A program made the position numbers and the translations under genes. A stretch of 64,000 nucleotides of DNA from Peptococcaceae bacterium. Its GTDB lineage: Bacteria > Bacillota > Desulfotomaculia > Desulfotomaculales > JACDOK01. Location of the stretch: NCBI GenBank assembly GCA_017656185.1, contig JACDOK010000006.1:1-64000 (forward strand). The letters are read 5' to 3'. The notes beneath the pieces are model-generated. The model was given only the letters and a program-made list of their open reading frames with translations, made no database searches and had not been told where the DNA came from. Below are positions 6,292-60,566 of this stretch, in pieces. Positions within the stretch are counted from its first letter, which is position 1. Each line of letters begins with the position of its first letter.

Positions 6292-7398
6292 ATGGGCAAA
6301 AAAGTTACGGTGTCTGTCATTAAGGCCGATGTCGGTGGATTTGTAGGCCATTCCGGCGTGCATCCCGAGTTACTGGAAAAGGCCAAGGGTATTTTGGCGG
6401 GCAGCCCGCTCCTGATAGACTTTCACGTTACCCACGTAGGCGATGATATTAATTTAATCCTTTCTCACGAACTGGGCCGCAACAACGGGGAAATTCACCA
6501 GTTGGCATGGGATACTTTCACCGCGTGTACGGAAGTCGCCAAGAAACTAAAACTATACGGCGCGGGACAGGACCTTTTGGGTGACGCTTTTTCCGGTAAC
6601 ATCAAGGGTTTGGGGCCCGGTGTAGCTGAAATGGAAGTAGAAGAGCGTAAAAGCGAAGCTATCCTGGTCTTCATGGCTGATAAAACCGAACCCGGCGCCT
6701 GGAATTTGCCTCTTTATAAAATGTTTGCCGATCCCTTTAATACCATCGGCCTTGTTATTGATCCCAATATGCACTGTGGTTTTGATTTTGAAGTTCGTGA
6801 TCTTATTGAAAACAAGAAGATTATGTTCTCGGCACCTGAAGATATTTACGATATGCTCGTGTTCATCGGTGCGCCAGGCCGGTATGCCATTAAACGTGTT
6901 TTCCACCGCGGAACGAAACAAATTGCTGCGTCTTCCAGCACGCAGCGCCTGAATCTTATGGCTGGCCGTTACGTAGGTAAAGACGACCCCGTTTGTATCG
7001 TCCGCTGCCAGAGCGGCTATCCCGCCGTTGGCGAAGCACTGGAAGCTTTCGCCCACCCGCACCTGGTTGCCGGTTGGATGCGTGGTTCACATCACGGCCC
7101 CCTGATGCCGGTCGGTGTGGAACAGTCCACCCCGACCCGCTTCGACGGCCCGCCGCGGGTAATCTGTCTCGGATTCCAGTTGGCTGAGGGCAGGCTGGTC
7201 GGGCCCCAGGATATGTTCGCCGATCCGGCCTTCGACAATGCCCGGCAGAAGGCCCTGGACATCGCCGACTATATGCGGTCCCTCGGTCCCTTCGAGCCGC
7301 ACCGGCTGCCCTTGGACGAAATGGAATATACCACCATGCCCCAGGTAATGAAGAAATTAAAGGACCGGTTTATTGATCTGAGGGGAAAGAAGAAATAA
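6292..7398 (+). CDS. fbp: Bifunctional fructose-1,6-bisphosphate aldolase/phosphatase (type V FBPase)
   Basis: VTVSVIKADVGGFVGHSGVHPEL...FHVTHVGDDINLIL...DPNMHCGFDFEV characteristic of the archaeal-type FBPA/P family. Confidence 0.93.
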   Translation: MGKKVTVSVIKADVGGFVGHSGVHPELLEKAKGILAGSPLLIDFHVTHVGDDINLILSHELGRNNGEIHQLAWDTFTACTEVAKKLKLYGAGQDLLGDAFSGNIKGLGPGVAEMEVEERKSEAILVFMADKTEPGAWNLPLYKMFADPFNTIGLVIDPNMHCGFDFEVRDLIENKKIMFSAPEDIYDMLVFIGAPGRYAIKRVFHRGTKQIAASSSTQRLNLMAGRYVGKDDPVCIVRCQSGYPAVGEALEAFAHPHLVAGWMRGSHHGPLMPVGVEQSTPTRFDGPPRVICLGFQLAEGRLVGPQDMFADPAFDNARQKALDIADYMRSLGPFEPHRLPLDEMEYTTMPQVMKKLKDRFIDLRGKKK

Positions 7399-46939: not shown

Positions 46940-47647
46940 CTATACCTCTTCCTTGTGAGCCGCCTTGCTCATATTGAGTCCGAGCCCTTCGAAGAGGAAG
47001 TAGATAGCGAACCCCCACCAAACGGTATAGATAATGTAGAACACCAGCATCCCGGTAACCGTACCGGCAAAATCCGAAACCCGTTCCGGTTTGACACCAT
47101 AGAAGTTATAAGCCGGTTCGACGGCCCTTTTCACGATTTCATCTACGAAGGATGCCTGCTTGAAAGCCCCCTGCTTTTTCAAGACACTATCTACTTCGTG
47201 CAGGGCCAGCCACCAGTGATACATCGCATCCTTCTTGTGGTAGCCGTACTTCTCGGTCATTATATCACCCTCGTTGTTGAACATCGCATCGGCATCATTT
47301 ACGACGGCCGCTGCAATATTCCCCAGGTCGCCGTTAATCTTAACTTCGCTGCCGCTCGTTTGAACCTGAGCACCAGACTTCTCAAAGAGAACGGCGGCCT
47401 TGGCAGCGTCATCGGTACTGTCCAGCGTTATGGTCACATCAATCACCTGACCGCGATACCCGTCTACTTGTTCCTTAACTTCCGGGATAAAGTAGGTCGA
47501 CCCCTTGGCGATCGAATTGAACAACTGATCGGCAAACTGCAGACCGTTCATCCCGTTGAAGACCGGCGAGTAGATCGCTGCCAACACCAGAAAGAACGAG
47601 ATAGCCAAAACTAACCCGATGGTAAAGCTGCGCCCGTTCCGTATCAT
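46940..47647 (-). CDS. Conserved hypothetical protein with N- and C-terminal TM segments and a periplasmic domain
   Basis: SFTIGLVLAISFFLVLAAIYSP ... GMLVFYIIYTVWWGFAIYFLF; between TauE copy 4 and the HTH ORF. Confidence 0.6.
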   Translation of the reverse strand: MIRNGRSFTIGLVLAISFFLVLAAIYSPVFNGMNGLQFADQLFNSIAKGSTYFIPEVKEQVDGYRGQVIDVTITLDSTDDAAKAAVLFEKSGAQVQTSGSEVKINGDLGNIAAAVVNDADAMFNNEGDIMTEKYGYHKKDAMYHWWLALHEVDSVLKKQGAFKQASFVDEIVKRAVEPAYNFYGVKPERVSDFAGTVTGMLVFYIIYTVWWGFAIYFLFEGLGLNMSKAAHKEEV

Positions 47648-47650
47648 CCT

Positions 47651-48916
47651 CTATACCTCCTCTCTCAACTTGGGTAGGTTCCTGAAGAAGGTACTTATCA
47701 CCCACACGGCAAAGATGCCGACAATAATGAAGAAGATCCAATTCCCGGCCACCGTCAGAGCGTTCCCTAAACCCGGGCTGACACTGATTACACCAAGCTT
47801 GGAGAGTTTGGACGGCAGCACAAACAGGCGGTTAAGGAACCCGGCTATGATCGCGGTGGCGTAAAAGCCCCGGATGTAGATACCCTTGACAACCTTAGTC
47901 GTAAGGGCCCCCACCTGAATGCCGATCAGCGAGCCAAGGAGCATCCCCATAGCCAGCGTGTAAAAGATGAACCCGTATACGGCGTACTGCGAAATGGAGG
48001 CATAACCGGCAGTAAAAATGATCTGCAGGATGTCAGTGCCAACCGTGGTGAAGGACGATACCCCGAGGCCGTAAACGAACATCGGGAAGGTGAGGAAGCC
48101 GCCACCGACACCCATAATCGCGGCTACGAACCCGACGATACCGCCGCAGCCAGCCACGAAGATGGCCGGGATTTTGCGTCCGCCCGGTACGAGGTCCTGG
48201 TCAAAGGTAATCCTGGGCGGAATGTTGCTCGCCTGCAGGCGACCGGCAATACCCGTCACGGCACCGCCTGCTGCCGCTGTTTCATGTGCTGCGGCGGAAT
48301 CTATTTTAGCCACACCGGATCTCTGTCTTAAGAAATCAAACAGCGCGTAAAATCCCAGGAAACCGAGCAGCAATACGTAGATAACGCTGATGAAAGTGTC
48401 ACTGAGCACGGGGTTACTCATATACAGAGCCCGGTTCAGAATGCCGCCGCCCGACACGCCGATAAAGGAACCGGCCACAAAGGCTACGGCTAAGCCGATC
48501 GACACGTTGCCCAGCTTTTTGTGCACCGTGGTGCCCATAATAGCTTTGGCAAAGATATGGAACAAGTCGGTACCTACGGCCAGGATACCCTTAACCCCGA
48601 CGCTCATCAGGGCAGGGGTAATGATAAAGCCGCCCCCGGCACCGATACACCCGGTGATCAACCCGGCACACAGGCCGATCAGGATCGACACTAGGAAGAT
48701 TTTAGGAGAATAGAAGGCAGGAGCATAGGCCGACTTCCCGCCCAAGATTCCCGGCAGGTCCGCGGCATAACCGATGATTGGAACAAGCAGCGGCGTACAA
48801 AGCACAAGCAGTAGAAACAGCTTGCGGCGATCCCTTAGAATAGTCAGTGAGGTTTCGTATTCCCACCTGGCATGGGCTCGTGCTGCCGCTTGAAACATTT
48901 CATAGAGCTTTCTCAA
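47651..48916 (-). CDS. TauE/SafE family anion permease (copy 4, long form with cytoplasmic N-terminus)
   Basis: GCIGAGGGFIITPALMSVGVKGILAVGTDLFHIFAKAI...AIMGVGGGFLTFPMFVYGLGVSSFTTVGTDILQII. Confidence 0.92.
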   Translation of the reverse strand: MRKLYEMFQAAARAHARWEYETSLTILRDRRKLFLLLVLCTPLLVPIIGYAADLPGILGGKSAYAPAFYSPKIFLVSILIGLCAGLITGCIGAGGGFIITPALMSVGVKGILAVGTDLFHIFAKAIMGTTVHKKLGNVSIGLAVAFVAGSFIGVSGGGILNRALYMSNPVLSDTFISVIYVLLLGFLGFYALFDFLRQRSGVAKIDSAAAHETAAAGGAVTGIAGRLQASNIPPRITFDQDLVPGGRKIPAIFVAGCGGIVGFVAAIMGVGGGFLTFPMFVYGLGVSSFTTVGTDILQIIFTAGYASISQYAVYGFIFYTLAMGMLLGSLIGIQVGALTTKVVKGIYIRGFYATAIIAGFLNRLFVLPSKLSKLGVISVSPGLGNALTVAGNWIFFIIVGIFAVWVISTFFRNLPKLREEV

Positions 48917-49041: not shown

Positions 49042-49135
49042 AAAGGCCGGCTTACCCCCGCCCGGAACCTTCCCCGCGCTTTGAATATCCGAGAGTAGGG
49101 GGCATGCCGGCCTATCGTTTTTCGATTCGGCCTTT
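49042..49135 (-). ncRNA. Copy 1 of a repeated structured GGCC element
   Basis: Minus: AAAGGCCGAATCGAAAAACGATAGGCCGGCATGCCCCC...GGGGGTAAGCCGGCCTTTTT. Confidence 0.65.
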
Positions 49136-49153
49136 ATTCGTATTGGATTGTCC

Positions 49154-49375
49154 TTAATCCCTATACCTGGCCACGGGCACCGCTTCCGTCAAATCTTTCA
49201 AAATACTGGCATCATTGTTTCTCTGAGCGGCTATTATTTGCCTGAGCCGGTTACCCTTTATCAATACACAGCGCCCACCCGGTACCATAACGCGATACCA
49301 TTCAATTCCCGGTACCGGGATAATGCGGCAACCCAATGCTTCCAGGCGTTCAAACACCATCCGCATGTCAGTCAT
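49154..49375 (-). CDS. Small hypothetical protein
   Basis: MTDMRMVFERLEALGCRIIPVPGIEWYRVMVPGGRCVLIKG; start ATG 49375 behind GGAGGTGAT removes overlap with 49392..49595. Confidence 0.6.
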   Translation of the reverse strand: MTDMRMVFERLEALGCRIIPVPGIEWYRVMVPGGRCVLIKGNRLRQIIAAQRNNDASILKDLTEAVPVARYRD

Positions 49376-49391
49376 GCGGATCACCTCCGGA

Positions 49392-49595
49392 TCAACCCGA
49401 GAGACGGGGTTTGTGGCGGCGGCTGCCGGCAACCCGCTCTGGCACTTCGTCCTCTTCCAGCTTTCGTGTTTTAATAGCCTCATAAATGACCACGGGCTGC
49501 CCGTTTTCCACCCTGATCTTGACCTCGCCCCAGCCTAACTGCCGGAGGAAAGCTATAAGCTGTCTTTCCCGGTTTGTTAAGTCGCTGATCGACAT
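49392..49595 (-). CDS. YezD (DUF2292)-like small protein
   Basis: LTNRERQLIAFLRQLGWGEVKIRVENGQPVVIYEAIKTRKLEE; paralogous to 50316..50576. Confidence 0.6.
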   Translation of the reverse strand: MSISDLTNRERQLIAFLRQLGWGEVKIRVENGQPVVIYEAIKTRKLEEDEVPERVAGSRRHKPRLSG

Positions 49596-49630
49596 CGCGC
49601 CTCACGCTCCTCCAGCACTTCAGTGCTGAA

Positions 49631-49699
49631 AAAGGCCGCTACCCTCCCCCTTGGCACACGGGGGAGAATAACGGCCTATCGTTGTTCGATTCAGCCTTT
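49631..49699 (-). ncRNA. Copy 2 of the structured GGCC element
   Basis: Minus: AAAGGCTGAATCGAACAACGATAGGCCGTTATTCTCCCCC...GGGGGAGGGTAGCGGCCTTTTT. Confidence 0.65.
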
Positions 49700-49726
49700 A
49701 ATATTTAATTGAGTTAATTAATTAAA

Positions 49727-50179
49727 TTATTTAATGAGGATTACCGGGCACGGCGCCATTTGCAAAACTTTATGACTGACACTACCAAGGAATATTTCCT
49801 TTAAATTACTCATGCCGCGCGTACCCATCACAATCAGGTCGACACCGTGCTTGCGGGCATACTCGCTGATTTCCTCGGCGGGATTGCCGGCACCGTAATC
49901 AGACTGGACATTAATGCCCTTTTCTTTGAAGACCGCTTCCGCCTGTTCCAAGATACGCTGGCGCTCCTCGGCAAACACTTCCCGAATGTGTTTACCCTGT
50001 TCACCCCAGTCAGCCGCCACCCAGTAGAGACGGCGCGATATATAACTGCGCGGAATGCGGTCAACAGTAAAAACGGTGACTTTACTGTTGGGGTTGAATT
50101 TGGCCAACTCTGCCGCATATTGGGCAGCACGCATGGCACACTCCGACCCGTCAACAGGTACCAAAATGTTGTTAATCAT
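49727..50179 (-). CDS. Universal stress protein (UspA family)
   Basis: MINNILVPVDGSECAMRAAQYAAELAK...GVDLIVMGTRGMSNLKEIFLGSVSHKVLQMAPCPVILIK. Confidence 0.94.
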   Translation of the reverse strand: MINNILVPVDGSECAMRAAQYAAELAKFNPNSKVTVFTVDRIPRSYISRRLYWVAADWGEQGKHIREVFAEERQRILEQAEAVFKEKGINVQSDYGAGNPAEEISEYARKHGVDLIVMGTRGMSNLKEIFLGSVSHKVLQMAPCPVILIK

Positions 50180-50236
50180 AGGCGTCACCTCCCAATTAAA
50201 ACTTTTTTGGTAAGCTTGGTTCAGCCCTTTAATACC

Positions 50237-50304
50237 AAAGGCCGTTACCCTCCCCATTACATCAGTTTGGGAAGAATAACGGCCTATCGTTGTTCGATTC
50301 GGCC
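50237..50304 (-). ncRNA. Copy 3 of the structured GGCC element
   Basis: Minus: GGGCCGAATCGAACAACGATAGGCCGTTATTCTTCCC...GGGGAGGGTAACGGCCTTT. Confidence 0.65.
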
Positions 50305-50315
50305 CGTTTTCAATT

Positions 50316-50576
50316 TTATCTCAGGCATATCTCTGCCACTTCCTGAAGCGGCTTGATTACTATTCCTTTCCGGTCTTTCCGGTTGCTGCCAGGTTTTTCC
50401 TCCAGGCGCACGGTACGGATAGCTTCGTAAACCACTACCGGTTGACCGTTCTCGACTCTTAGTTTGACCTCGCCCCAACCCATTTGGCGCAGAAAATATA
50501 TTAGCTTTTTTTCCCGGCTTGTTAGATTGAAAGGACCTCGCTCATCCACGGTGCCACCCCTTCCAAGGAGGTTCAT
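50316..50576 (-). CDS. YezD (DUF2292)-like small protein
   Basis: LTSREKKLIYFLRQMGWGEVKLRVENGQPVVVYEAIRTVRLEE. Confidence 0.6.
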   Translation of the reverse strand: MNLLGRGGTVDERGPFNLTSREKKLIYFLRQMGWGEVKLRVENGQPVVVYEAIRTVRLEEKPGSNRKDRKGIVIKPLQEVAEICLR

Positions 50577-50917: not shown

Positions 50918-51304
50918 CTACTCGTCCTCTTTATTAACCACCATTCTTTTCACCGTGGCACGCAGCTCAGCTACACTAAAGGGCTTGATTATATATCCCG
51001 TTGCGCCTTTGGAAATTGCTGCGGAGGCTACATCGATGCTGCCATGGCCGGTGATGAGGATCAGCGGTACCTGGGCATCAACCTGCCTGACTCTCCGTAC
51101 CACTTCCAGTCCGTCCATGTCCGGCATTTTTAAATCCACCAACACCGCTGCCGGCTTTTCATTAAAAAACAATTCCAGTCCCTCACGCCCCCCACCGGCG
51201 GTCACCGGTATAAAACCTTCCTGTTCCATGGCCTTGGCGAGGACCCAGCGCATCTCTTCCTCATCATCGATGATTAAAATCTTAGGCTCTGCCATTCTAC
51301 CCAT
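50918..51304 (-). CDS. Single-domain (CheY-like) response regulator
   Basis: KILIIDDEEEMRWVLAKAMEQEGF...VLVDLKMPDMDGLEVV...LILITGHGSIDVASAAISKGATGYIIKPF; no output domain. Confidence 0.94.
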   Translation of the reverse strand: MGRMAEPKILIIDDEEEMRWVLAKAMEQEGFIPVTAGGGREGLELFFNEKPAAVLVDLKMPDMDGLEVVRRVRQVDAQVPLILITGHGSIDVASAAISKGATGYIIKPFSVAELRATVKRMVVNKEDE

Positions 51305-52802
51305 CTCCTTTCGTTACCGGTAGGTATACCGTCATTTTCGTACCCGATCCGGGTTTGCTTTCAGCCTTAATCTGCCCGCCATGAACCCCGATAATCTGCT
51401 GGCTTATGGCCAGGCCCAGCCCGCTGCCGCCTTCTTTGGTAGTGTAATAGGGTTCAAAAATGTGCGGCAGGTCATCGGCAGCAATACCCTTTCCGGTATC
51501 CTCAAAGGTAACGCGTATCCATTCGTCTGCCTGCTGCGAGGTAATAATCAGGGACCCGCCCTCCGGCATAGCCTGCACAGCATTAATGATCAGGTTTAAG
51601 AAGACCTGTTTCAACTTTTCCTGGCTTCCTATCACCTGAGGCAAATCATCGGCCAGCCGGAGCTGCAGGTCAATGTGAAGGCGACGCAGCAGGGCATCGG
51701 AAAAGTTCAATACGCTTTGTACCAGCTCGTTTACATCAAGAGGCTGCAGCTTGCCGTTATCCGGTTTCCCAAAATCGAGCAGTTCGTCAACAATCTTATT
51801 TTGACGTTCAATCTGCTGCTTCATGCGCTTAATATATTCTTTTATGCCTGAACATTCCTTAAGATCATCCTCCATTACTTCTACAGTCGCCCTCAGGATC
51901 CCAAGAGGATTCCGTAATTCGTGGGCAATTCCGGTTACCAGCCTTCCCAAAGCCGCCAAACAATCGGCCCGCCGCAGTTGTTCCTTCAGTTGTTCCTTTT
52001 CCGCCAGCCCGTCCGCCATCTTGTTGATCGCTTTGGCAATCTGTCCCATCTCTCCCGGCATGGGTGCCAGCCGAAAGCCGGTATCGTACTCCAGCGCTTC
52101 TAAACCTTTTTTAATCCTGCTGATATGACGGGTAACGTTAAAAACGACGACCATAAGCCCTAAAATACATACGCAAAAGACAATTAGCATTGTATAGCGT
52201 GTAATCAGGCGAAAATGATAGCTCTTGGCAAAAATTGGGTGCATGCGTTCCTCCGCCCATACTACGGCCACCGGCTCTCCGTTCACCATCACAGGACGCA
52301 GGTATTCCAGGAATTCATCGTCCCAGGTTCGCCCCAGCCTCGAGATCGCATCCCGGGTCGCGAGGGCAGCCTGGATTCCGGCTGATACCTCTCTTAAAAT
52401 GCGCTGCTCGCGCCGTTTCTGTTCCGCCGGGGAAAGCTCCCTGTACTCGTGCAGAAAGCCTTCCACATACATCTCGTCAGTTTTAGGCAGGTACAGTCCC
52501 AAGCGTACCCCGGCATACTCCGATGCCAGGGGCTTGGCCGTCTTTGTAAAGACAGCCGCCAACTTGTTACCGGTATCTTGGGCCCCTTTTTCTTCTATCT
52601 CTTTCGCAGCCGCACTCTCCAGTTTAGATGAAAGTTCAGTGACAATTTCACCAAGGCGTTTCTCCTTCTCTTTCAGCACCACTTCGTCACTCTTGCTGGC
52701 GTAAAGCAGGTCGTAAAGCATTACAAGCACCGGTACCACCAAAACCACCAGTACAATAGCAATGAGCTGAAAGCGCATGCCCCGGTTTCTGATTAACGCC
52801 AC
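51297..52802 (-). CDS. Sensor histidine kinase, paralogue of 40276..41811
   Basis: TGIAHELRNPLGILRATVEVM; FEDTGKGIAADDLPHIFEPYYTTKEGGSGLGLAISQQI; same N-terminal sensor architecture. Confidence 0.95.
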   Translation of the reverse strand: MALIRNRGMRFQLIAIVLVVLVVPVLVMLYDLLYASKSDEVVLKEKEKRLGEIVTELSSKLESAAAKEIEEKGAQDTGNKLAAVFTKTAKPLASEYAGVRLGLYLPKTDEMYVEGFLHEYRELSPAEQKRREQRILREVSAGIQAALATRDAISRLGRTWDDEFLEYLRPVMVNGEPVAVVWAEERMHPIFAKSYHFRLITRYTMLIVFCVCILGLMVVVFNVTRHISRIKKGLEALEYDTGFRLAPMPGEMGQIAKAINKMADGLAEKEQLKEQLRRADCLAALGRLVTGIAHELRNPLGILRATVEVMEDDLKECSGIKEYIKRMKQQIERQNKIVDELLDFGKPDNGKLQPLDVNELVQSVLNFSDALLRRLHIDLQLRLADDLPQVIGSQEKLKQVFLNLIINAVQAMPEGGSLIITSQQADEWIRVTFEDTGKGIAADDLPHIFEPYYTTKEGGSGLGLAISQQIIGVHGGQIKAESKPGSGTKMTVYLPVTKGDG

Positions 52803-52986: not shown

Positions 52987-53868
52987 TTAAAGGCCGAACC
53001 TTTTGAGTATCTTTTGGGGCGAAACGATGTTGTGCTCGAACCCCAGTTCCTTAACCTTAAGATCAAATGCTACCCCCATTAACTGTGTAATAAAGAAAAC
53101 AGGCATATCATAATTGCGTCCCTTTACCTGGTTAATCTTCTTCTGGTAAGCGTCACAGTTCATATGGCACATTGGACAAGGGGTAACAATGACGTCAGCC
53201 CCGGCCTGATGGGCCGCTTCCAGCACATCGCCGGTAAGATCATAAATCATGTTGACGTTCGTAAACTGCTGCGACCCGCCGCAGCAGCGGGCGGCGTGTG
53301 TAAAGGGCACTGCCGTTGCCCCCATAGCCTCGACGATCTGGCCCAGCACCTTCGGGCGTTCCACGTCGTCGAAATCAGGTCTCCGCACACCGCGTACCGT
53401 CTGACAGCCCGAGTAACACGCCACTTTCAAACCTTCCAGCGGCTTAATGGTGCGGGCTTTGATTTCATCAAGGCCGATATCATTCACCAGCACGTCCAAC
53501 AGGTGGCGGACACGCAGGGTACCGTTGTACTGGAGGCCCGCAGCGCTTAAAGCTTCGTTGCATTTTTGAGCAAACTCAGGCTCGGTTTTAAATCTCTCGT
53601 TTACCCAGGCCAAATTCATGAAGCAGGAACTGCACCCTACCAGAATATCACCGGCACCGTTCTTTTCGGCTAGGGCCAAGTTCCGCGCCGTAATAGCCTG
53701 CTGCGGAAAATCGCCGATAACGTTGGCGACTACGGTTGCGCCACAGCAGTTCCAATCGGGGATATCCTTGGCCTCCAGGCCCAGCGCTTTATTGATAGCC
53801 TCAAAAGAAACCCCGTAGGCCTTACCTGTTGCTTCCATGGAACATCCGGGATAGAAACTGTACGCCAT
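52987..53868 (-). CDS. hdrB: Heterodisulfide reductase subunit B-like protein (CCG domains)
   Basis: YSFYPGCSMEATGKAYGVSFEAI...WNCCGATV...CSSCFMNL...CYSGCQTVR...ARCCGGSQQF...TPCPMCHMN. Confidence 0.95.
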   Translation of the reverse strand: MAYSFYPGCSMEATGKAYGVSFEAINKALGLEAKDIPDWNCCGATVVANVIGDFPQQAITARNLALAEKNGAGDILVGCSSCFMNLAWVNERFKTEPEFAQKCNEALSAAGLQYNGTLRVRHLLDVLVNDIGLDEIKARTIKPLEGLKVACYSGCQTVRGVRRPDFDDVERPKVLGQIVEAMGATAVPFTHAARCCGGSQQFTNVNMIYDLTGDVLEAAHQAGADVIVTPCPMCHMNCDAYQKKINQVKGRNYDMPVFFITQLMGVAFDLKVKELGFEHNIVSPQKILKRFGL

Positions 53869-53869
53869 C

Positions 53870-54439
53870 TTAGTGTCCCTCCTTTGCCAGGGCCACGGCC
53901 TTGTCGTAGATCTTCTTCACATCTCCCAACCCCTTGACTTTCTTGGGAGGTGCCAGCGGCAGGCGTTTGGCCTTCATCATGGCCATGCCTACGTCCTGCA
54001 TTTTCATGGCATCCTTTATGGCGCCAAAGCCGGACTTCATATAGTAGGCGTTGGTCATCCCCAATTCAAAGACACGACCACGCTTCATCATACTATCAAA
54101 GAAGACCTTGCTCAAGGTAGCCACTGGCGCTTTCGTACCCTTTTCAAAGTGATAGTGCTTCAACGAGTGCATTACGTCAATGATAGGAATGCCGCGCGGA
54201 CAACGCACCGTGCACAGGCAACAAGAGGTACACAGCCAAGGCGTATTGGCTTTTAAAACCTTGTCCACTTCGCCGGCAAACAGCATCTTAAAAAGCTGCC
54301 GCGGGGTATAATCCATCAGGTGACGTGCCGGACAGGTTACGGCACACAGCCCGCACTGCATACACTGCTGGGCATATTTACCGCTTTCCAGGTTGTACAC
54401 CTCACGGGAAGCAGCAGGGTTGTATTTAAACGCGCACAT
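53870..54439 (-). CDS. hdrC: Heterodisulfide reductase subunit C-like [4Fe-4S] protein
   Basis: CMQCGLCAVTCPARH ... CTSCCLCTVRCPRGIPIIDVM. Confidence 0.94.
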   Translation of the reverse strand: MCAFKYNPAASREVYNLESGKYAQQCMQCGLCAVTCPARHLMDYTPRQLFKMLFAGEVDKVLKANTPWLCTSCCLCTVRCPRGIPIIDVMHSLKHYHFEKGTKAPVATLSKVFFDSMMKRGRVFELGMTNAYYMKSGFGAIKDAMKMQDVGMAMMKAKRLPLAPPKKVKGLGDVKKIYDKAVALAKEGH

Positions 54440-54610
54440 TGTTACTTAACCTCCTTACGTTAGCAAACCTAATCTCCTAAGATCGAAACTTAGGTCTCCC
54501 CCTAATCGCCGCGTAATGCTAAGCATATGCTCCAGGCACCGGCTTGTAGCAATCGGAGGCCCTGGGAGGAGACGGAGTCGGCCAAACCCCGGTCTCCTCC
54601 CTGTCAAGCC

Positions 54611-56833
54611 TTAGAAATCTTTCATGGGGTTAGGACCTAATTCTTCCAGTTTCTCGGCAAATTCATCCAGTATCTTAGGAATTTGGTCGTAATCCATAAT
54701 GCTGACCTGCCGCATCTGCACCCGCTCGGATTCTAAGCGCAACCTGTCCAGGGTCTCCGAAATCTTCGACAATCTAATCTCAGCCAGTTCACTGCCCTTT
54801 ACGAAGTGGCACTGGTAATCATCCCCGTGTTTGCAGCCCAGGAGCATAACGCCGTCAAATCCGTTCGACATCGCGTCGGCGATCCAGATAAGGTTCAGCG
54901 AACCCAGGCATCTTACCGGGATGATTCTGATCCAGGGGTTGTATTCGAGGCGGTTGATACCCGCTATGTCGAGGGCCGGGATGGCGTCATTTTCACAGGC
55001 AAAGACCAGAATTCTCGGCTTTTCTTCAAATTCTTCCGGCACCTCGATGTTCTTGAGCATGCTGCCGATCATACCCACCGAGTAATTCTTGAAGGAGATA
55101 ATCCGTTCCGGACAAGCACCCATACAGGTACCGCATCTTCTGCACCGGGTGGGATGGGGCAGCGGGTAGGTTTTTTCGTCTTCATTAATGGCGCCAAACG
55201 GGCATTCTTCGGTACATCTCTTACACTGCGTACAACGGGACAGGTTGAATTCGGGGAACGAGAAATCAAGCGCCCGCGGGTGTACCGCCGCGCCCTTCGC
55301 GGTAAGCTCGACACATTGAATGGCCTTCAGCGCCGCACCGGCAGCATCGTCAATGGCCGCCCGCACGTCCATCGGCGCCCTTACCGTACCGGCGGGATAA
55401 ATGCCGGTCCGGCGGCTTTCGTACGGGAAGCAGATGAAATGCGAGTCGGGAAAGCCGTATTTCAAGGACGGCAGTTCCGGACCCTGCCGGTACTGCAGGT
55501 TAAGGATATCCGATCTGATGATCGTATCAGCCGCCGCCGCAGCAGCCTCAGCTTCTTCGCCCTCTTTGACTTCCACCGTCAATTCCTCTTCGCCGAAAGC
55601 CGTAGTGGGTACCATACCGGTAGCCAGAACCACGAGATCACTGTCTACCTGTACGGTTTCACCACGAACGACGTCCTCGGCTTCCACGCTTACCTGACCG
55701 CCAGCTTCGTTCACACCGACAACTTCACCCTTAATGAAGACAACACCTTCACTCTGGGCTTTCTTATACAGGAACTCGTACTGGCCGGCCGCCCGCAGGT
55801 CTTTATAAATAATGACCGCGGTGGCATCCGGATTCTGCTCTTTCACGTACAGGGCCTGCCGCAGAGAACCGACACAGCACTCGGCGGAACAATAGGGCAG
55901 GTGCTCGGGGTCACGGGACCCGGCACACTGGATAAAGGTTACGCTCTGTACTTCCTTGCCGTCGGAAGGCCGCGTAATCTTGCCGCTGGACGCCATTTCC
56001 TCAAACTGGTCCTTGGTGACCACGTCCTGGAAACGTCCAAAGCCCAGATGCGCCAACTTGGTGGCGTCGTACGGCTTGGCACCGGTCGCCAGTACGATCG
56101 CACCGACCTTTTCCTTAACGGTGTTTCCGTTCTGGTTGATAGTAACTTCAAAAATACCCGGGCCACCGGAAATACCCTCCGATTTGGCCGATGTATAAAC
56201 GGTAATGTTCGGGTTGTCCTCAACCTGCTTGATAATATCCTGGATATCGTTTTCCCTGAGTTCATCGTACGGCGGGCGCAGCGCCACCTGCTTATACTGC
56301 TTAGCCACCCAACCGCCCAGAGAGGCTTCCTTTTCGATCAAGACTACCTTGTAACCGGCTGCAGCCGCTTCCAATGCCGCGGTCAGACCGACCAGGCCAC
56401 CGCCAACTACCAAAATAGTCTTGACAATGCCTTCTTCTATGTACGGTTCCGGCAATTCAGACTTCTGGACCTTGACAATGCCCATACGCATATTGTCTTC
56501 GGCGATCATATCGGTGTCCTCGTCATTAGCCGGGTGGCACCATACTACGTGCTCTCTCAGGTTGACACGCTCTACCATAACAGAAGGGCCAAAATTAAAT
56601 ACATCGGTATTCACGCGGCCCGAGCATCCGGCGACAATTACGGCGTTAACGCCTTCTTCTCCTTCCAGGTCCTTCTTGATCAGTTCTACGCCTTCCTTGC
56701 CGCACAGGTGAGCGTGGGTCCGCACTACCGGACATTTGTATTCTTTTTCGGCAACCTTGGTTACCTTATCGATGTCCAGGGCGTCACCAATACCACACCC
56801 CGTGCAAACGTACACGCCAATTTTCTTAGCCAT
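54611..56833 (-). CDS. qmoB: QmoB / HdrA-like FAD-FeS protein with C-terminal MvhD domain
   Basis: VYVCTGCGIG; VVGGGLVGLTAALEAAAAGYKVVLIEKEASLGG; two 4Fe-4S motifs; C-terminal MvhD-like region (FACENDAIPALDIAG...VRCLGSLN...MLLGCKHGDDYQCHFVKGSELA). Confidence 0.94.
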   Translation of the reverse strand: MAKKIGVYVCTGCGIGDALDIDKVTKVAEKEYKCPVVRTHAHLCGKEGVELIKKDLEGEEGVNAVIVAGCSGRVNTDVFNFGPSVMVERVNLREHVVWCHPANDEDTDMIAEDNMRMGIVKVQKSELPEPYIEEGIVKTILVVGGGLVGLTAALEAAAAGYKVVLIEKEASLGGWVAKQYKQVALRPPYDELRENDIQDIIKQVEDNPNITVYTSAKSEGISGGPGIFEVTINQNGNTVKEKVGAIVLATGAKPYDATKLAHLGFGRFQDVVTKDQFEEMASSGKITRPSDGKEVQSVTFIQCAGSRDPEHLPYCSAECCVGSLRQALYVKEQNPDATAVIIYKDLRAAGQYEFLYKKAQSEGVVFIKGEVVGVNEAGGQVSVEAEDVVRGETVQVDSDLVVLATGMVPTTAFGEEELTVEVKEGEEAEAAAAAADTIIRSDILNLQYRQGPELPSLKYGFPDSHFICFPYESRRTGIYPAGTVRAPMDVRAAIDDAAGAALKAIQCVELTAKGAAVHPRALDFSFPEFNLSRCTQCKRCTEECPFGAINEDEKTYPLPHPTRCRRCGTCMGACPERIISFKNYSVGMIGSMLKNIEVPEEFEEKPRILVFACENDAIPALDIAGINRLEYNPWIRIIPVRCLGSLNLIWIADAMSNGFDGVMLLGCKHGDDYQCHFVKGSELAEIRLSKISETLDRLRLESERVQMRQVSIMDYDQIPKILDEFAEKLEELGPNPMKDF

Positions 56834-58094
56834 TTCCGTTACCACCCCTCACGGAACCCTGAATAGCTTTAAGCGCAGCAGCGGTAGCATCACGTACGGA
56901 GGCCGCCACATCCATGGGTTTCCGGGCACAACCGGCGCCACAAATACCGGTTTCCTTGGGCTCGGCAATCACAAACCCGTCGTCGTCGGTAGTGCCGTCT
57001 ACCGGAATGGGGTTGGCCAGGGTCGAAGGCACCATACCAGTCGCCAGCACGACGAGATCCGCTTCGTGATGCAAAACCTCACCTTTGATTTGGTCTTCAA
57101 CTTCGAGCACCAGATTCTTGGTGTCAGGGTTCTCAGTAATTTCGCCAACTTTACCCTTGATAAAGACTACGTTCTCGTCTTCCTGAACCTTGGTATAGAA
57201 ATCTTCGTATTTACCCATCGCCCGGATGTCGATGTAGAAGATGGTAATCTTGGCGTCGGGATATTGCTCTCTGATATAGGTGGCCTGTTTCAGGGTCGCC
57301 AGGCAGCAAACCTGGGAACAGTAAGGCTGGTGATTCTCGTCCCTGGAACCGGCACACTGGACAAAGGCAACGTTTGTTACGGGCTTGCCGTCGGAGGGGC
57401 GGACGATTTTCCCCTGGGTCGGTCCGTTCTTCGCAGCCAAGCGTTCCATCATCACGTTTGTAATCACGTTTTCATTCGCTTCAAAGTTGTAATAGCTGAT
57501 CTTGGAGGCATCATACGGCTCCCATCCGGTAGCCCAAACTATGGAATCGACCTTCAGGTTCATACTCTTGGCCTGCGCGTTCAAATCAATAGCTTTATAT
57601 TCACAGGCTTCCAAGCACTTACCACAGCTGCTGCCCGAACAAGCCTCCGGGTCAATGACATATTTCATAGGAAAGGCAAACTCGTGAGGCAGGTAGATGG
57701 CTTTGGTTTTGTCCAGCCCAAAATTAAAGTCATTAGGTCTTTCTGCCGGACAAGCTTCAACACACTTGCCGCAAGCCGTGCAGTCTTCGGTAACAAACCG
57801 GGGATGCAGCTTGACAGTCACGTCATAGTCCCCCTTCTGACCCGAGACAGCTTCGACTTCAGCAGAGGTAAAGATCCTAATGTTGGGATTCGTTTTAATT
57901 CTTCTGAAGTTAATTTCTAATCCGCAGTTGGGGGGGCAGAGCTTCGGGAAATACTTGTGGAGTTGAGCCACTCTACCGCCCAGGTAGGGCTTCTTTTCAA
58001 CGAGATACACCTCGTAACCCGTTTCGGCAGCCTCTACGGCGGCAGTCAGCCCGCTCATTCCACCCCCAACAACTAGGATACTTTTATTTGCCAT
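56826..58094 (-). CDS. qmoA: QmoA / HdrA-like FAD-FeS protein
   Basis: ILVVGGGMSGLTAAVEAAETGYEVYLVEKKPYLGGRVAQLHKYFPKLCPPNCGLEINFRRI; CTACGKCVEACP. Confidence 0.95.
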   Translation of the reverse strand: MANKSILVVGGGMSGLTAAVEAAETGYEVYLVEKKPYLGGRVAQLHKYFPKLCPPNCGLEINFRRIKTNPNIRIFTSAEVEAVSGQKGDYDVTVKLHPRFVTEDCTACGKCVEACPAERPNDFNFGLDKTKAIYLPHEFAFPMKYVIDPEACSGSSCGKCLEACEYKAIDLNAQAKSMNLKVDSIVWATGWEPYDASKISYYNFEANENVITNVMMERLAAKNGPTQGKIVRPSDGKPVTNVAFVQCAGSRDENHQPYCSQVCCLATLKQATYIREQYPDAKITIFYIDIRAMGKYEDFYTKVQEDENVVFIKGKVGEITENPDTKNLVLEVEDQIKGEVLHHEADLVVLATGMVPSTLANPIPVDGTTDDDGFVIAEPKETGICGAGCARKPMDVAASVRDATAAALKAIQGSVRGGNGNG

Positions 58095-58231: not shown

Positions 58232-60109
58232 TTAGTCAACCAGCGAGATGATATCCCGCTTGAACATTTCCCACTCGCCAGTAGCGGGATCCCACTTGCA
58301 GTTGACGAAGCACTTCCAGTTTTCCTCGTCCATCTTGGGAGTGTCGGTCCGGAAGTAGTAGCCCGGCCAACGGGTTTCCTCACGGAACAGGATGGTCCGG
58401 ATATGAGCTTCAGCCTGCCAGGTACGCTGGACGTTCTCCCAGCATCTCATAAGCTCGTGCAGGTCGCGAGCAGCAAGCTTCTCGGAGTCTTCTTTCAAGA
58501 GCTGCAGGAGCTCCATAGCTCTCTCGAGCATTGGCTTGCTGGTACGGAACCGAGCGGACACACCGCCAACGTACTCGTCCATCAACTTCTGCAGGCGGAA
58601 CATGTACTGCTTCGGCAGGATGTAGTTCGGGTTGACGTTCGGGTCGGTGGTGAAGCCGCTGTGCTCTTCCCACAGGGCCAGCGGGCGGAGGATTCTCTCT
58701 TTGAGTTCCTCGACCTTGGCCATGTCGACGTTCGGCTGCTCGTTATTTTCCTTCACGAACTTAACGATAGCCTTACCGGCAATTCTACCTTCGGCGTGGG
58801 AACCGGAGGAGAACTTGTGGCTGGAAGCACCGGAGGCGTCACCGGCTGCGAACAGACCCTTAATGGTGGTCATGTTGGTGTAACCCCAGAAGTATTCCGG
58901 CGGAGCGAGGTCCTCGGGACCGCTGACCCAGGCACCGGAAGCACCAGAGTGCGAACCGATGAAGTACGGCTCGGCAGCCGCGATTTCAGACGGTTTCTCT
59001 TCCGGGAAGACGTTGTTGGCGGCCCAGAGCAGAGCCTGCGAAATGGTCATGTCGAGGAAGTCTTCCCAGGCTTCGTTTTCGAGTTCTTTTCTCTTCTTCT
59101 TGTAGGCCTTGGGATCGTCCTTATAAGCTTCGGCCAACTTGGCCATAGCTTCTTCCGTTCTCATGTAGATCGGGCCGAGGCCTTCGTTTTCGTCCAGCAT
59201 ACCGAGATAGTTTCTCAGGTTGGCCGGGATCGGCTTCACAAGGCCGTAGGGAGCCCAGTTTTCGAGTTCGGCTCTACGCTCAACCATATACTCGCCGCCA
59301 AAGGCGTTGGTAGCTCTGGACTTAAAGAGCAGGAACCAAGCACCGACCGGGCCGTAGGCGTCCTTGAAGCGGACCGGGATGAAGCGGACTTCCTGGCAGG
59401 TCATTTCGGCGCCGGCCTTAATGGTGAAGTACGCGCTGGCACCGGAGTTGAAGGGAGGATACCAGGAACGGCCGAGACCTTCACCGCAGGAACGCGGCTT
59501 GAAGACGTGCACCGCGCCGCCCATTGCGGCCAGAACAGCCTTGGCCTTGAAGACGTAGAACTTGTTTTCACGGGTGCTGAAACCAACCGCGCCGGCGATT
59601 CTGTCGCCATCGAGGAGCGGCTCAACGATGAAGACACGCTCGTAAATGTTGTCGGTACCAAGGGCGTTCTTGGCAGCTTCAGCAACGATGATCTTGTAGG
59701 ACTCACCGTTGATCATAATCTGCCAGCGACCTTCGTGGACATAGTTGCCTTCTTCGTCTTTCCAGATGGGGAGACCCCATTTTTCAAACAGGTGCACGGT
59801 GCTGTCGACGTGACGCGCAATATTGGCAACAAGGTCATCACGGGCAATGCCCATGAGGTCCTGTTTCACGTAACGAATATAGTCTTCGACAGTGTTCTTG
59901 CCTTCTTTCAGGCCGATATACTCGTTAATAGCCGAAAGACCCATCGCAACGGCGCCGCTTCTGTCCATAGCCGCCTTGTCTACGAGGGTAACCTTCAAGC
60001 CTTCCTTTTTTGCCCAGTAAGCAGCTTCTACTGCTGCGCCGCAAGCCGCCATACCGCCGCCACAGATAAGAATATCAGTGGTGACTTCTACAGTTTCAAA
60101 GTTTGGCAT
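58232..60109 (-). CDS. aprA: Adenylylsulfate (APS) reductase subunit alpha
   Basis: ADILICGGGMAACGAAVEAAYWAK-type FAD site; VDKAAMDRSGAVAMGLSAIN; FYFRTDTPKMDEENWKCFVN-type C-term; 625 aa. Confidence 0.97.
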   Translation of the reverse strand: MPNFETVEVTTDILICGGGMAACGAAVEAAYWAKKEGLKVTLVDKAAMDRSGAVAMGLSAINEYIGLKEGKNTVEDYIRYVKQDLMGIARDDLVANIARHVDSTVHLFEKWGLPIWKDEEGNYVHEGRWQIMINGESYKIIVAEAAKNALGTDNIYERVFIVEPLLDGDRIAGAVGFSTRENKFYVFKAKAVLAAMGGAVHVFKPRSCGEGLGRSWYPPFNSGASAYFTIKAGAEMTCQEVRFIPVRFKDAYGPVGAWFLLFKSRATNAFGGEYMVERRAELENWAPYGLVKPIPANLRNYLGMLDENEGLGPIYMRTEEAMAKLAEAYKDDPKAYKKKRKELENEAWEDFLDMTISQALLWAANNVFPEEKPSEIAAAEPYFIGSHSGASGAWVSGPEDLAPPEYFWGYTNMTTIKGLFAAGDASGASSHKFSSGSHAEGRIAGKAIVKFVKENNEQPNVDMAKVEELKERILRPLALWEEHSGFTTDPNVNPNYILPKQYMFRLQKLMDEYVGGVSARFRTSKPMLERAMELLQLLKEDSEKLAARDLHELMRCWENVQRTWQAEAHIRTILFREETRWPGYYFRTDTPKMDEENWKCFVNCKWDPATGEWEMFKRDIISLVD

Positions 60110-60128
60110 ACTCAGTTAACCTCCTTCG

Positions 60129-60566
60129 TTACTTTTTCAGGGTCCAGAGTTCGACTCCCAGCGCTTCAGGCTCGGTGGAGAGCAACTGGCTGTTTAGATC
60201 ATCATGGGTTGCGAAACCACCGTTCGGATCAGCTTCGCCTTCCGGGGTGGTACGAATGGGGAACTTGAAGCGCTTCATAGTGCCGTCTCTAAAGGTAACG
60301 GTCCACATAATGTCTTCCGAACCTCTCATCGGGACACAGCTGGCACCCATCGGAACGAAGTCTGCGTATCCACGGACGTCCATAGCCTGCTGCGGGCAAA
60401 TCTTAACACAGCAGAGGCATTCCCAGCACATCTGCGGATCCTGGTTAAAGGCTTTACCCTTTTCCTTGTCCAACTTCATCAGATCGTTGGGGCAGATGTA
60501 CATGCAAGCGGTCTTATCCTGACCCTTGCAGCCGTCACATTTTTCCGCCATTACAAATGTTGGCAT
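60129..60566 (-). CDS. aprB: Adenylylsulfate (APS) reductase subunit beta
   Basis: MPTFVMAEKCDGCKGQDKTACMYICPNDLM...MCWECLCCVKICPQQAMDVRGYADFVPMGASC. Confidence 0.97.
   Translation of the reverse strand: MPTFVMAEKCDGCKGQDKTACMYICPNDLMKLDKEKGKAFNQDPQMCWECLCCVKICPQQAMDVRGYADFVPMGASCVPMRGSEDIMWTVTFRDGTMKRFKFPIRTTPEGEADPNGGFATHDDLNSQLLSTEPEALGVELWTLKK

Follow-up and report, generated by a model that had tools for sequence, protein, structure and literature searches.

A 24-nt RNA hairpin overlapping intrinsic terminators in Desulfotomaculales: a switch family with a YezD-like protein as its candidate partner

Introduction

To our knowledge, protein-dependent antiterminators fall into few families, namely BglG/SacY, ANTAR, and some single cases. 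In ANTAR antitermination (EutV, NasR, AmiR), an antiterminator lies over the terminators at several sites of a regulon, and the system is often combined with a two-component system. The ribonucleic antiterminator (RAT) of the BglG/SacY/LicT type is a small imperfect hairpin over the 5' arm of a terminator, which the bound protein holds so that transcription reads through (PMC3369931). The target RNA of ANTAR proteins consists of two hairpins with hexanucleotide loops, which carry A at loop position 1 and G at position 4 (PMC3369931). Here we describe a short RNA element in a window of 64,000 nucleotides (the whole stretch of DNA analysed) from a sulfate-reducing Peptococcaceae bacterium. Like RAT, it is a short hairpin that extends into the 5' arm of an intrinsic terminator, and like the ANTAR targets, it overlaps terminators at several sites. 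It also shares with the riboswitches and leaders in Rfam the character of a cis-regulatory leader with alternative folds.

Results

Three copies of the element beside the sulfate reduction genes

The sequence GAATCGAANAACGATAGGCC was found three times in the window, on the minus strand only (50281-50300, 49673-49692, and 49109-49128), while 100 dinucleotide-preserving shuffles gave no match at up to three mismatches. No further copy was found in the rest of the 2.3 Mb assembly. This bore out an earlier sequence-only reading, which had noticed three copies within 1.3 kb of the minus strand. As shown in Table 1, each copy consists of a hairpin, P1, and then a long hairpin that opens with the last GGCC of P1 and closes with CGGCCTTT. 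The copies start 12-28 nt past the stop codons of the YezD-like gene, the USP gene, and the 79-aa ORF, and precede USP (copy A), YezD-like (copy B), and TauE/SafE (copy C), as had been claimed. The compensatory changes reported for the upper stem, GTTA:TAAC and GGC:GCC, are likewise present. The U5 tails proposed for the element were seen in two copies, but the USP copy has merely UUUGG.

TABLE 1. Coordinates of the element copies and neighbouring genes in the window. ORFs were annotated with a simple script; R1 is the covariance model described in the text.
Feature	Position	Strand	Remark
Copy A, antiterminator hairpin P1 (GGCC-GA-ATCG-AACAA-CGAT-A-GGCC)	50281..50304	-	before USP; R1 47.9 bits
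Copy A, terminator hairpin, GGCC common with P1	50240..50284	-	weak tail TTTGG at 50239-50235
Copy B, antiterminator hairpin P1	49673..49696	-	before second YezD-like gene; R1 48.1 bits
Copy B, terminator hairpin	49634..49676	-	T5 at 49633-49629
Copy C, antiterminator hairpin P1, AAAAA loop	49109..49132	-	before TauE/SafE; R1 48.1 bits
Copy C, terminator hairpin	49045..49112	-	T5 at 49044-49040
YezD-like (DUF2292-like) paralogue 1, candidate RNA-binding antiterminator	50316..50576	-	start possibly GTG at 50549
YezD-like paralogue 2, candidate RNA-binding antiterminator	49392..49595	-	itself downstream of copy B
Universal stress protein, USP (PF00582)	49727..50179	-	behind copy A; scanned from 50182, ATG at 50179 read from sequence
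79-aa ORF, no assigned function	49154..49393	-	co-directional behind YezD-like paralogue 2, before copy C
TauE/SafE family permease (PF01925)	47651..48916	-	first large gene behind copy C
235-aa putative membrane protein, cluster c7	46940..47647	-	conserved partner of TauE in other islands
Receiver-only response regulator of the island	50918..51304	-	
Sensor histidine kinase of the island	51297..52802	-	
aprA and aprB (APS reductase)	58232..60566	-	co-directional upstream neighbours of the island
Hdr/Qmo-like genes	52987-58094		co-directional, with aprBA upstream of the island

The island adjoins the core of dissimilatory sulfate reduction in the window, since it is contiguous with aprBA and the Hdr/Qmo-like genes. 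Its response regulator is a lone receiver without an output domain, next to the histidine kinase. Elsewhere in the window, a c-di-GMP-I riboswitch (RF01051, 73.4 bits) lies at 1128-1218 on the plus strand.

Distribution of the element

In a pattern search over 60 relatives, which preceded the covariance model, many families of the order turned out to hold copies that were exact or nearly so. From 34 hairpins we constructed a covariance model, R1, and hits with E<=1e-3 were taken as matches. By this criterion, 33 of the 113 Desulfotomaculales genomes carry the element; each has 1-7 copies, which mostly lie within a few kb of one another. Among the genomes with a named record are Desulfoscipio geothermicus DSM 3669 and Desulforamulus aquiferis Bs105, both of which carry the element, as well as Pelotomaculum, Desulforudis, Ammonifex, and Desulfovirgula. 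In a sample of 399 genomes of the phylum, one convincing copy was found outside the order. Weak R1 matches in three genomes (G066, G278, and G361) were unsupported on a position-specific rescan.

Several islands deserve separate mention. A perfect element lies at the extreme end of a contig (L070, G186:C14:1-33) in a metagenome-assembled genome outside the order; a YezD-like match was not found in this genome, and contamination, genome incompleteness, and transfer are alternative explanations for the element. Within about 10 kb, one island (L087, G028:C5:44470-54504) holds eight element matches, of which some have the loop variant AUUAA; the matches precede USP, YezD, DASS, CBS, and TauE genes. 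Next to the islands L103, L105, L114, L116, and L101 lies an IS1634-like transposase gene of about 510-580 aa, identified by eye, which may have aided the spread or loss of element islands.

Rfam was scanned as the sequence-only reading had suggested, and the element belongs to no Rfam 15 family at the gathering threshold, nor was any related family found up to E 10. A literature search found no paper describing the motif. The RNA switch family is real, and it is uncatalogued as far as Rfam 15 and the literature examined show. A mobile repeat was considered and rejected, as the flanks are unrelated beyond 24 nt and the copies precede a recurrent gene set.

Structure of P1 and the overlapping terminator

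The consensus of P1 is rGCY-GA-AUCG-AANAA-CGAU-A-GGCY, and conservation is restricted to this single hairpin of about 24 nt. The information content amounts to 1.3-2.1 bits per P1 position after the first base and to about 0 outside the hairpin. In 96 distinct copies, 96.2% of the P1 pairs are standard, with double-sided changes in 6 of the 8 pairs; some copies, for example, have AUGG:CCAU or AUUG:CAAU in place of AUCG:CGAU. None of 500 shuffles matched this covariation, and sliding the partner destroyed the pairing. The test used the model-fitted alignment, and the ungapped seed alignment agrees with it.

A hairpin running from the P1 3' arm to a T-rich tail was found in 92 of 94 copies by a permissive test, which 44-56 shuffled sequences also pass. 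Under a strict definition (pairing of all four bases and an energy of -14 kcal/mol or better), an overlapping terminator was present in 85 of 92 copies, compared with 2-7 when the downstream sequence was shuffled. Furthermore, the P1 5' arm, the P1 3' arm, and the terminator 3' arm change together: the first position goes from C-G-C to U-A-U in five copies, and the fourth from G-C-G to A-U-A in nine. Because these three GGCC-type segments covary as a triple, both of the mutually exclusive folds are under selection. The sequence-only reading had described three such segments in exclusive pairings and had named a lack of covariation among homologues as grounds for rejecting the idea; the 94 copies in 33 genomes back the pairings, with covariation in both folds and overlapping terminators in nearly all copies.

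The terminator fold was favoured by about 4-6 kcal/mol in the window copies A-C. When P1 was enforced in these copies, the upper terminator stem persisted, while its base was freed and the stem became detached from the U-tract. Three Desulforudis copies (L088:6488-6510 and 6740-6762 on the plus strand, L109:9163-9185 on the minus strand) have an intact P1 that does not compete with the main terminator. In these copies, CCGCUUU behind P1 could pair with the AAAGGCGG of the terminator, and they might represent a switch of opposite polarity.

Genes behind the element

For the neighbourhoods of the copies, genes were called by conservation and the resulting clusters were then named. Of the 94 copies, 22 are followed by a YezD-like gene and 11 by TauE/SafE, and another 9 by small membrane proteins that lead to TauE. 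The remaining next genes encode a crystallin-like 146-aa protein (9 copies), a kinase (6), a CBS protein (4), USP (3), a DASS symporter (3), a formate channel (3), and others besides; regulator genes are also among the targets. In relatives of Desulfotomaculum, the putative sulfate transporters include DASS and TauE/CysZ-type proteins (PMC5840216). The crystallin-like protein (L095:9377-9817, L086:8127-8567), which was named by eye and has no Pfam match, is a frequent target in some islands.

The next gene lies on the same strand as the element in 83 of 94 copies, at a median distance of about 150 nt. The upstream gene is on the same strand in 69 copies and divergent in 25, and a role purely as a 3' terminator is ruled out at these 25 because they stand behind a divergent gene. 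The suggestion that the copies are merely a duplicated terminator family was therefore not supported, the upstream hairpin being moreover their most conserved part.

In three species of one genus (L085:7637-7659, minus strand; L091:11750-11772, plus strand; L102:7017-7039, minus strand), the element has no annotated ORF behind it, and untranslated sequence continues until a convergent PiT gene. The L085 element stands behind a promoter-like TTGACA-17-TAACAT, and a second terminator-like hairpin is located about 150 nt downstream. These three elements may control a small RNA.

The YezD-like protein and its co-occurrence with the element

The YezD-like proteins scored 14.2 bits (E 0.034) against DUF2292 (PF10055), below the Pfam cut-off of 22 bits, and are hence called DUF2292-like only; against OscA (NF033785, labelled 'sulfur starvation response protein') the score was 14.5 bits (E 0.028), below the NCBIfam cut-off of 85 bits. 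AlphaFold2 predicted a helix and a beta hairpin with low confidence (pLDDT 67.6, pTM 0.38). A search of PDB folds with this model gave no match, and a sequence search of the PDB gave nothing significant. The parts of the DUF2292/YezD/OscA literature that were consulted describe no mechanism, and sulfur starvation is the sole link of the DUF2292/OscA family that we know of.

The genomes were searched with a profile from the island proteins, which matched the clade at E 1e-23 or better within the order. A clade member (60-85 aa) was found in 34 of 113 genomes, comprising all 33 element genomes and 1 of the 80 others (Fisher p 9.5e-28, with the relatedness of genomes ignored). The exception, G077, has its three yezD genes on a contig of 7.5 kb, in a genome that is 89% complete and in which no element was found. 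Eight genera include both element-positive and element-negative species, and there the presence of YezD and of the element agrees throughout, G077 excepted.

The genomes of family f7 are informative. Those with the element carry a single copy each, before a formate-channel operon. In the one whose yezD was inspected (G032), the gene is an orphan amid unrelated genes on a separate contig from the element, and none of six yezD neighbourhoods in the family contained an element. YezD is thus not merely a target, since its gene in f7 is unlinked to any element. Furthermore, the formate-channel orthologues in eleven complete-enough f7 genomes without yezD gave no R1 match. The element therefore follows YezD rather than the target gene, although their co-occurrence could also reflect a third factor.

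Discussion

Comparative analysis of the copies establishes the hairpin, its overlap with the terminator, two selected folds, and a regulon, and the existence of an RNA switch family is well supported on these grounds. We consider it fairly probable that the element is an attenuation switch in which the P1 antiterminator is stabilised by the YezD-like protein and the genes are turned on. By default, the nascent RNA would adopt the intrinsic terminator, at whose base the GGCC of the P1 3' arm pairs with the distal GGCC that precedes the U-tract; transcription would then halt ahead of the next gene. If P1 were held, it would capture the 5' side of the terminator base, the rest of the stem would be parted from the U-tract, and the polymerase would read through. 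We infer that the holder of P1 is the co-occurring YezD-like (DUF2292-like) protein, which would act as an RNA-binding antiterminator; it is this co-occurrence that points to RNA binding, and the hairpin is probably stabilised in this way. Binding of the protein would turn the genes on, and where the switch precedes yezD, it would give autoregulation with positive feedback. The physiological input may come from sulfur-anion or formate metabolism, and an input from sulfur starvation would fit the OscA-like labelling.

The alternative that comes next keeps the RNA antiterminator and changes its partner: P1 would be bound by another factor, an ANTAR protein, or a protein linked to the kinase and receiver, and the YezD-like protein would be co-inherited or a target. 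We regard this as possible but rather unlikely. In its favour, a histidine kinase and a regulator made of a receiver alone, without output domain, are usually encoded in the island. A single-sequence probe, which is less sensitive, detected the kinase in 24 of 33 element genomes compared with 28 of 80 others and did not find it in the f7 element genomes, and the kinase was rejected as the linked factor. Proteins of REC-ANTAR size with an ANTAR domain are encoded in the genome, and ANTAR occurs in all 33 element genomes, but it also occurs in 66 of the 80 element-less ones (99 of 113 overall), and the two hairpins with hexaloops that mark ANTAR targets are absent from the element RNA (PMC3369931). 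The notion of YezD as a mere target is opposed by f7, in which no element was found near yezD.

The remaining readings appear weaker. A small-molecule riboswitch acting without protein, with P1 or the nascent leader as the binding site of a metabolite such as sulfate, sulfite, or APS, would suit the leader position before transport genes and the mutually exclusive folds. It is improbable, as one conserved hairpin of about 24 nt, with no second domain or pseudoknot partner, leaves no room for an aptamer, the distribution tracks one protein family, and the f7 formate-channel operon is among the targets. Of the 'novel riboswitch/attenuator' proposed by the sequence-only reading, the attenuator thus stands in kind, with a protein as its likely ligand, while the small-molecule riboswitch sits poorly with the short conserved part and with the element's tracking of a specific small protein. 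Slightly less probable still are ordinary constitutive intergenic terminators multiplied by duplication. These would account for the strong hairpin with its U-tract and for the 69 copies after a co-stranded gene, but not for the fact that P1, which is dispensable for termination, is the best conserved part, for covariation in both folds, for the copies behind divergent genes, or for the missing element at orthologous loci without yezD. We give very little credence to a DNA operator in which a DNA-binding protein would recognise the ATCG-N5-CGAT palindrome and the RNA folds would be incidental. The core is indeed palindromic and remains so through its changes (ATGG/CCAT, ATTG/CAAT); however, the non-palindromic AANAA loop and GA/A internal loop are conserved, the element keeps one orientation towards the gene in 83 of 94 copies, and a terminator arm tens of bases off covaries with the outer arms.

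Returning to the switch stabilised by the YezD-like protein, we consider it slightly more likely than not, and somewhat less probable than this switch model, that the YezD/DUF2292-like clade of 60-85 aa is an unrecognised class of sequence-specific RNA-binding antiterminators, each serving 1-7 near-identical switches ahead of genes for anion transport, signalling, and stress in Desulfotomaculales, with feedback onto yezD in places. The wider DUF2292/OscA family may act on RNA as well. If true, the known antiterminators would gain a new RNA family, with a minimal recognition hairpin of 24 nt and a candidate partner of about 65 residues, and DUF2292/YezD/OscA-like proteins would gain their first molecular function. 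It would also imply that anion transport genes of Gram-positive sulfate reducers and formate-channel operons of their syntrophic relatives share a control at the RNA level. The protein, the 24-nt hairpin, and the terminator would make up a small portable pair.

Compared with described systems, the likeness to DUF2292/YezD/OscA proteins is a weak profile resemblance of the co-occurring protein. The present protein exceeds them in length, its core is basic (median pI 9.2) and its tail mildly so, and it forms a separate clade, with E 1e-23 or better within the order and 4.5e-14 or weaker outside. A regulator of the BglG/SacY type was rejected as the partner, the PRD/CAT_RBD domain (PF03123) being present in 2 of 113 genomes and in none of the element genomes; unlike RAT, moreover, the element has a single internal loop, GA/A, and its hairpin loop is AANAA. 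It differs from ANTAR targets in being one hairpin with an AANAA pentaloop and no upstream conservation, and an ANTAR domain is absent from the island's receiver protein. On this comparison, the element would work like the RAT or ANTAR antiterminators while belonging to neither family.
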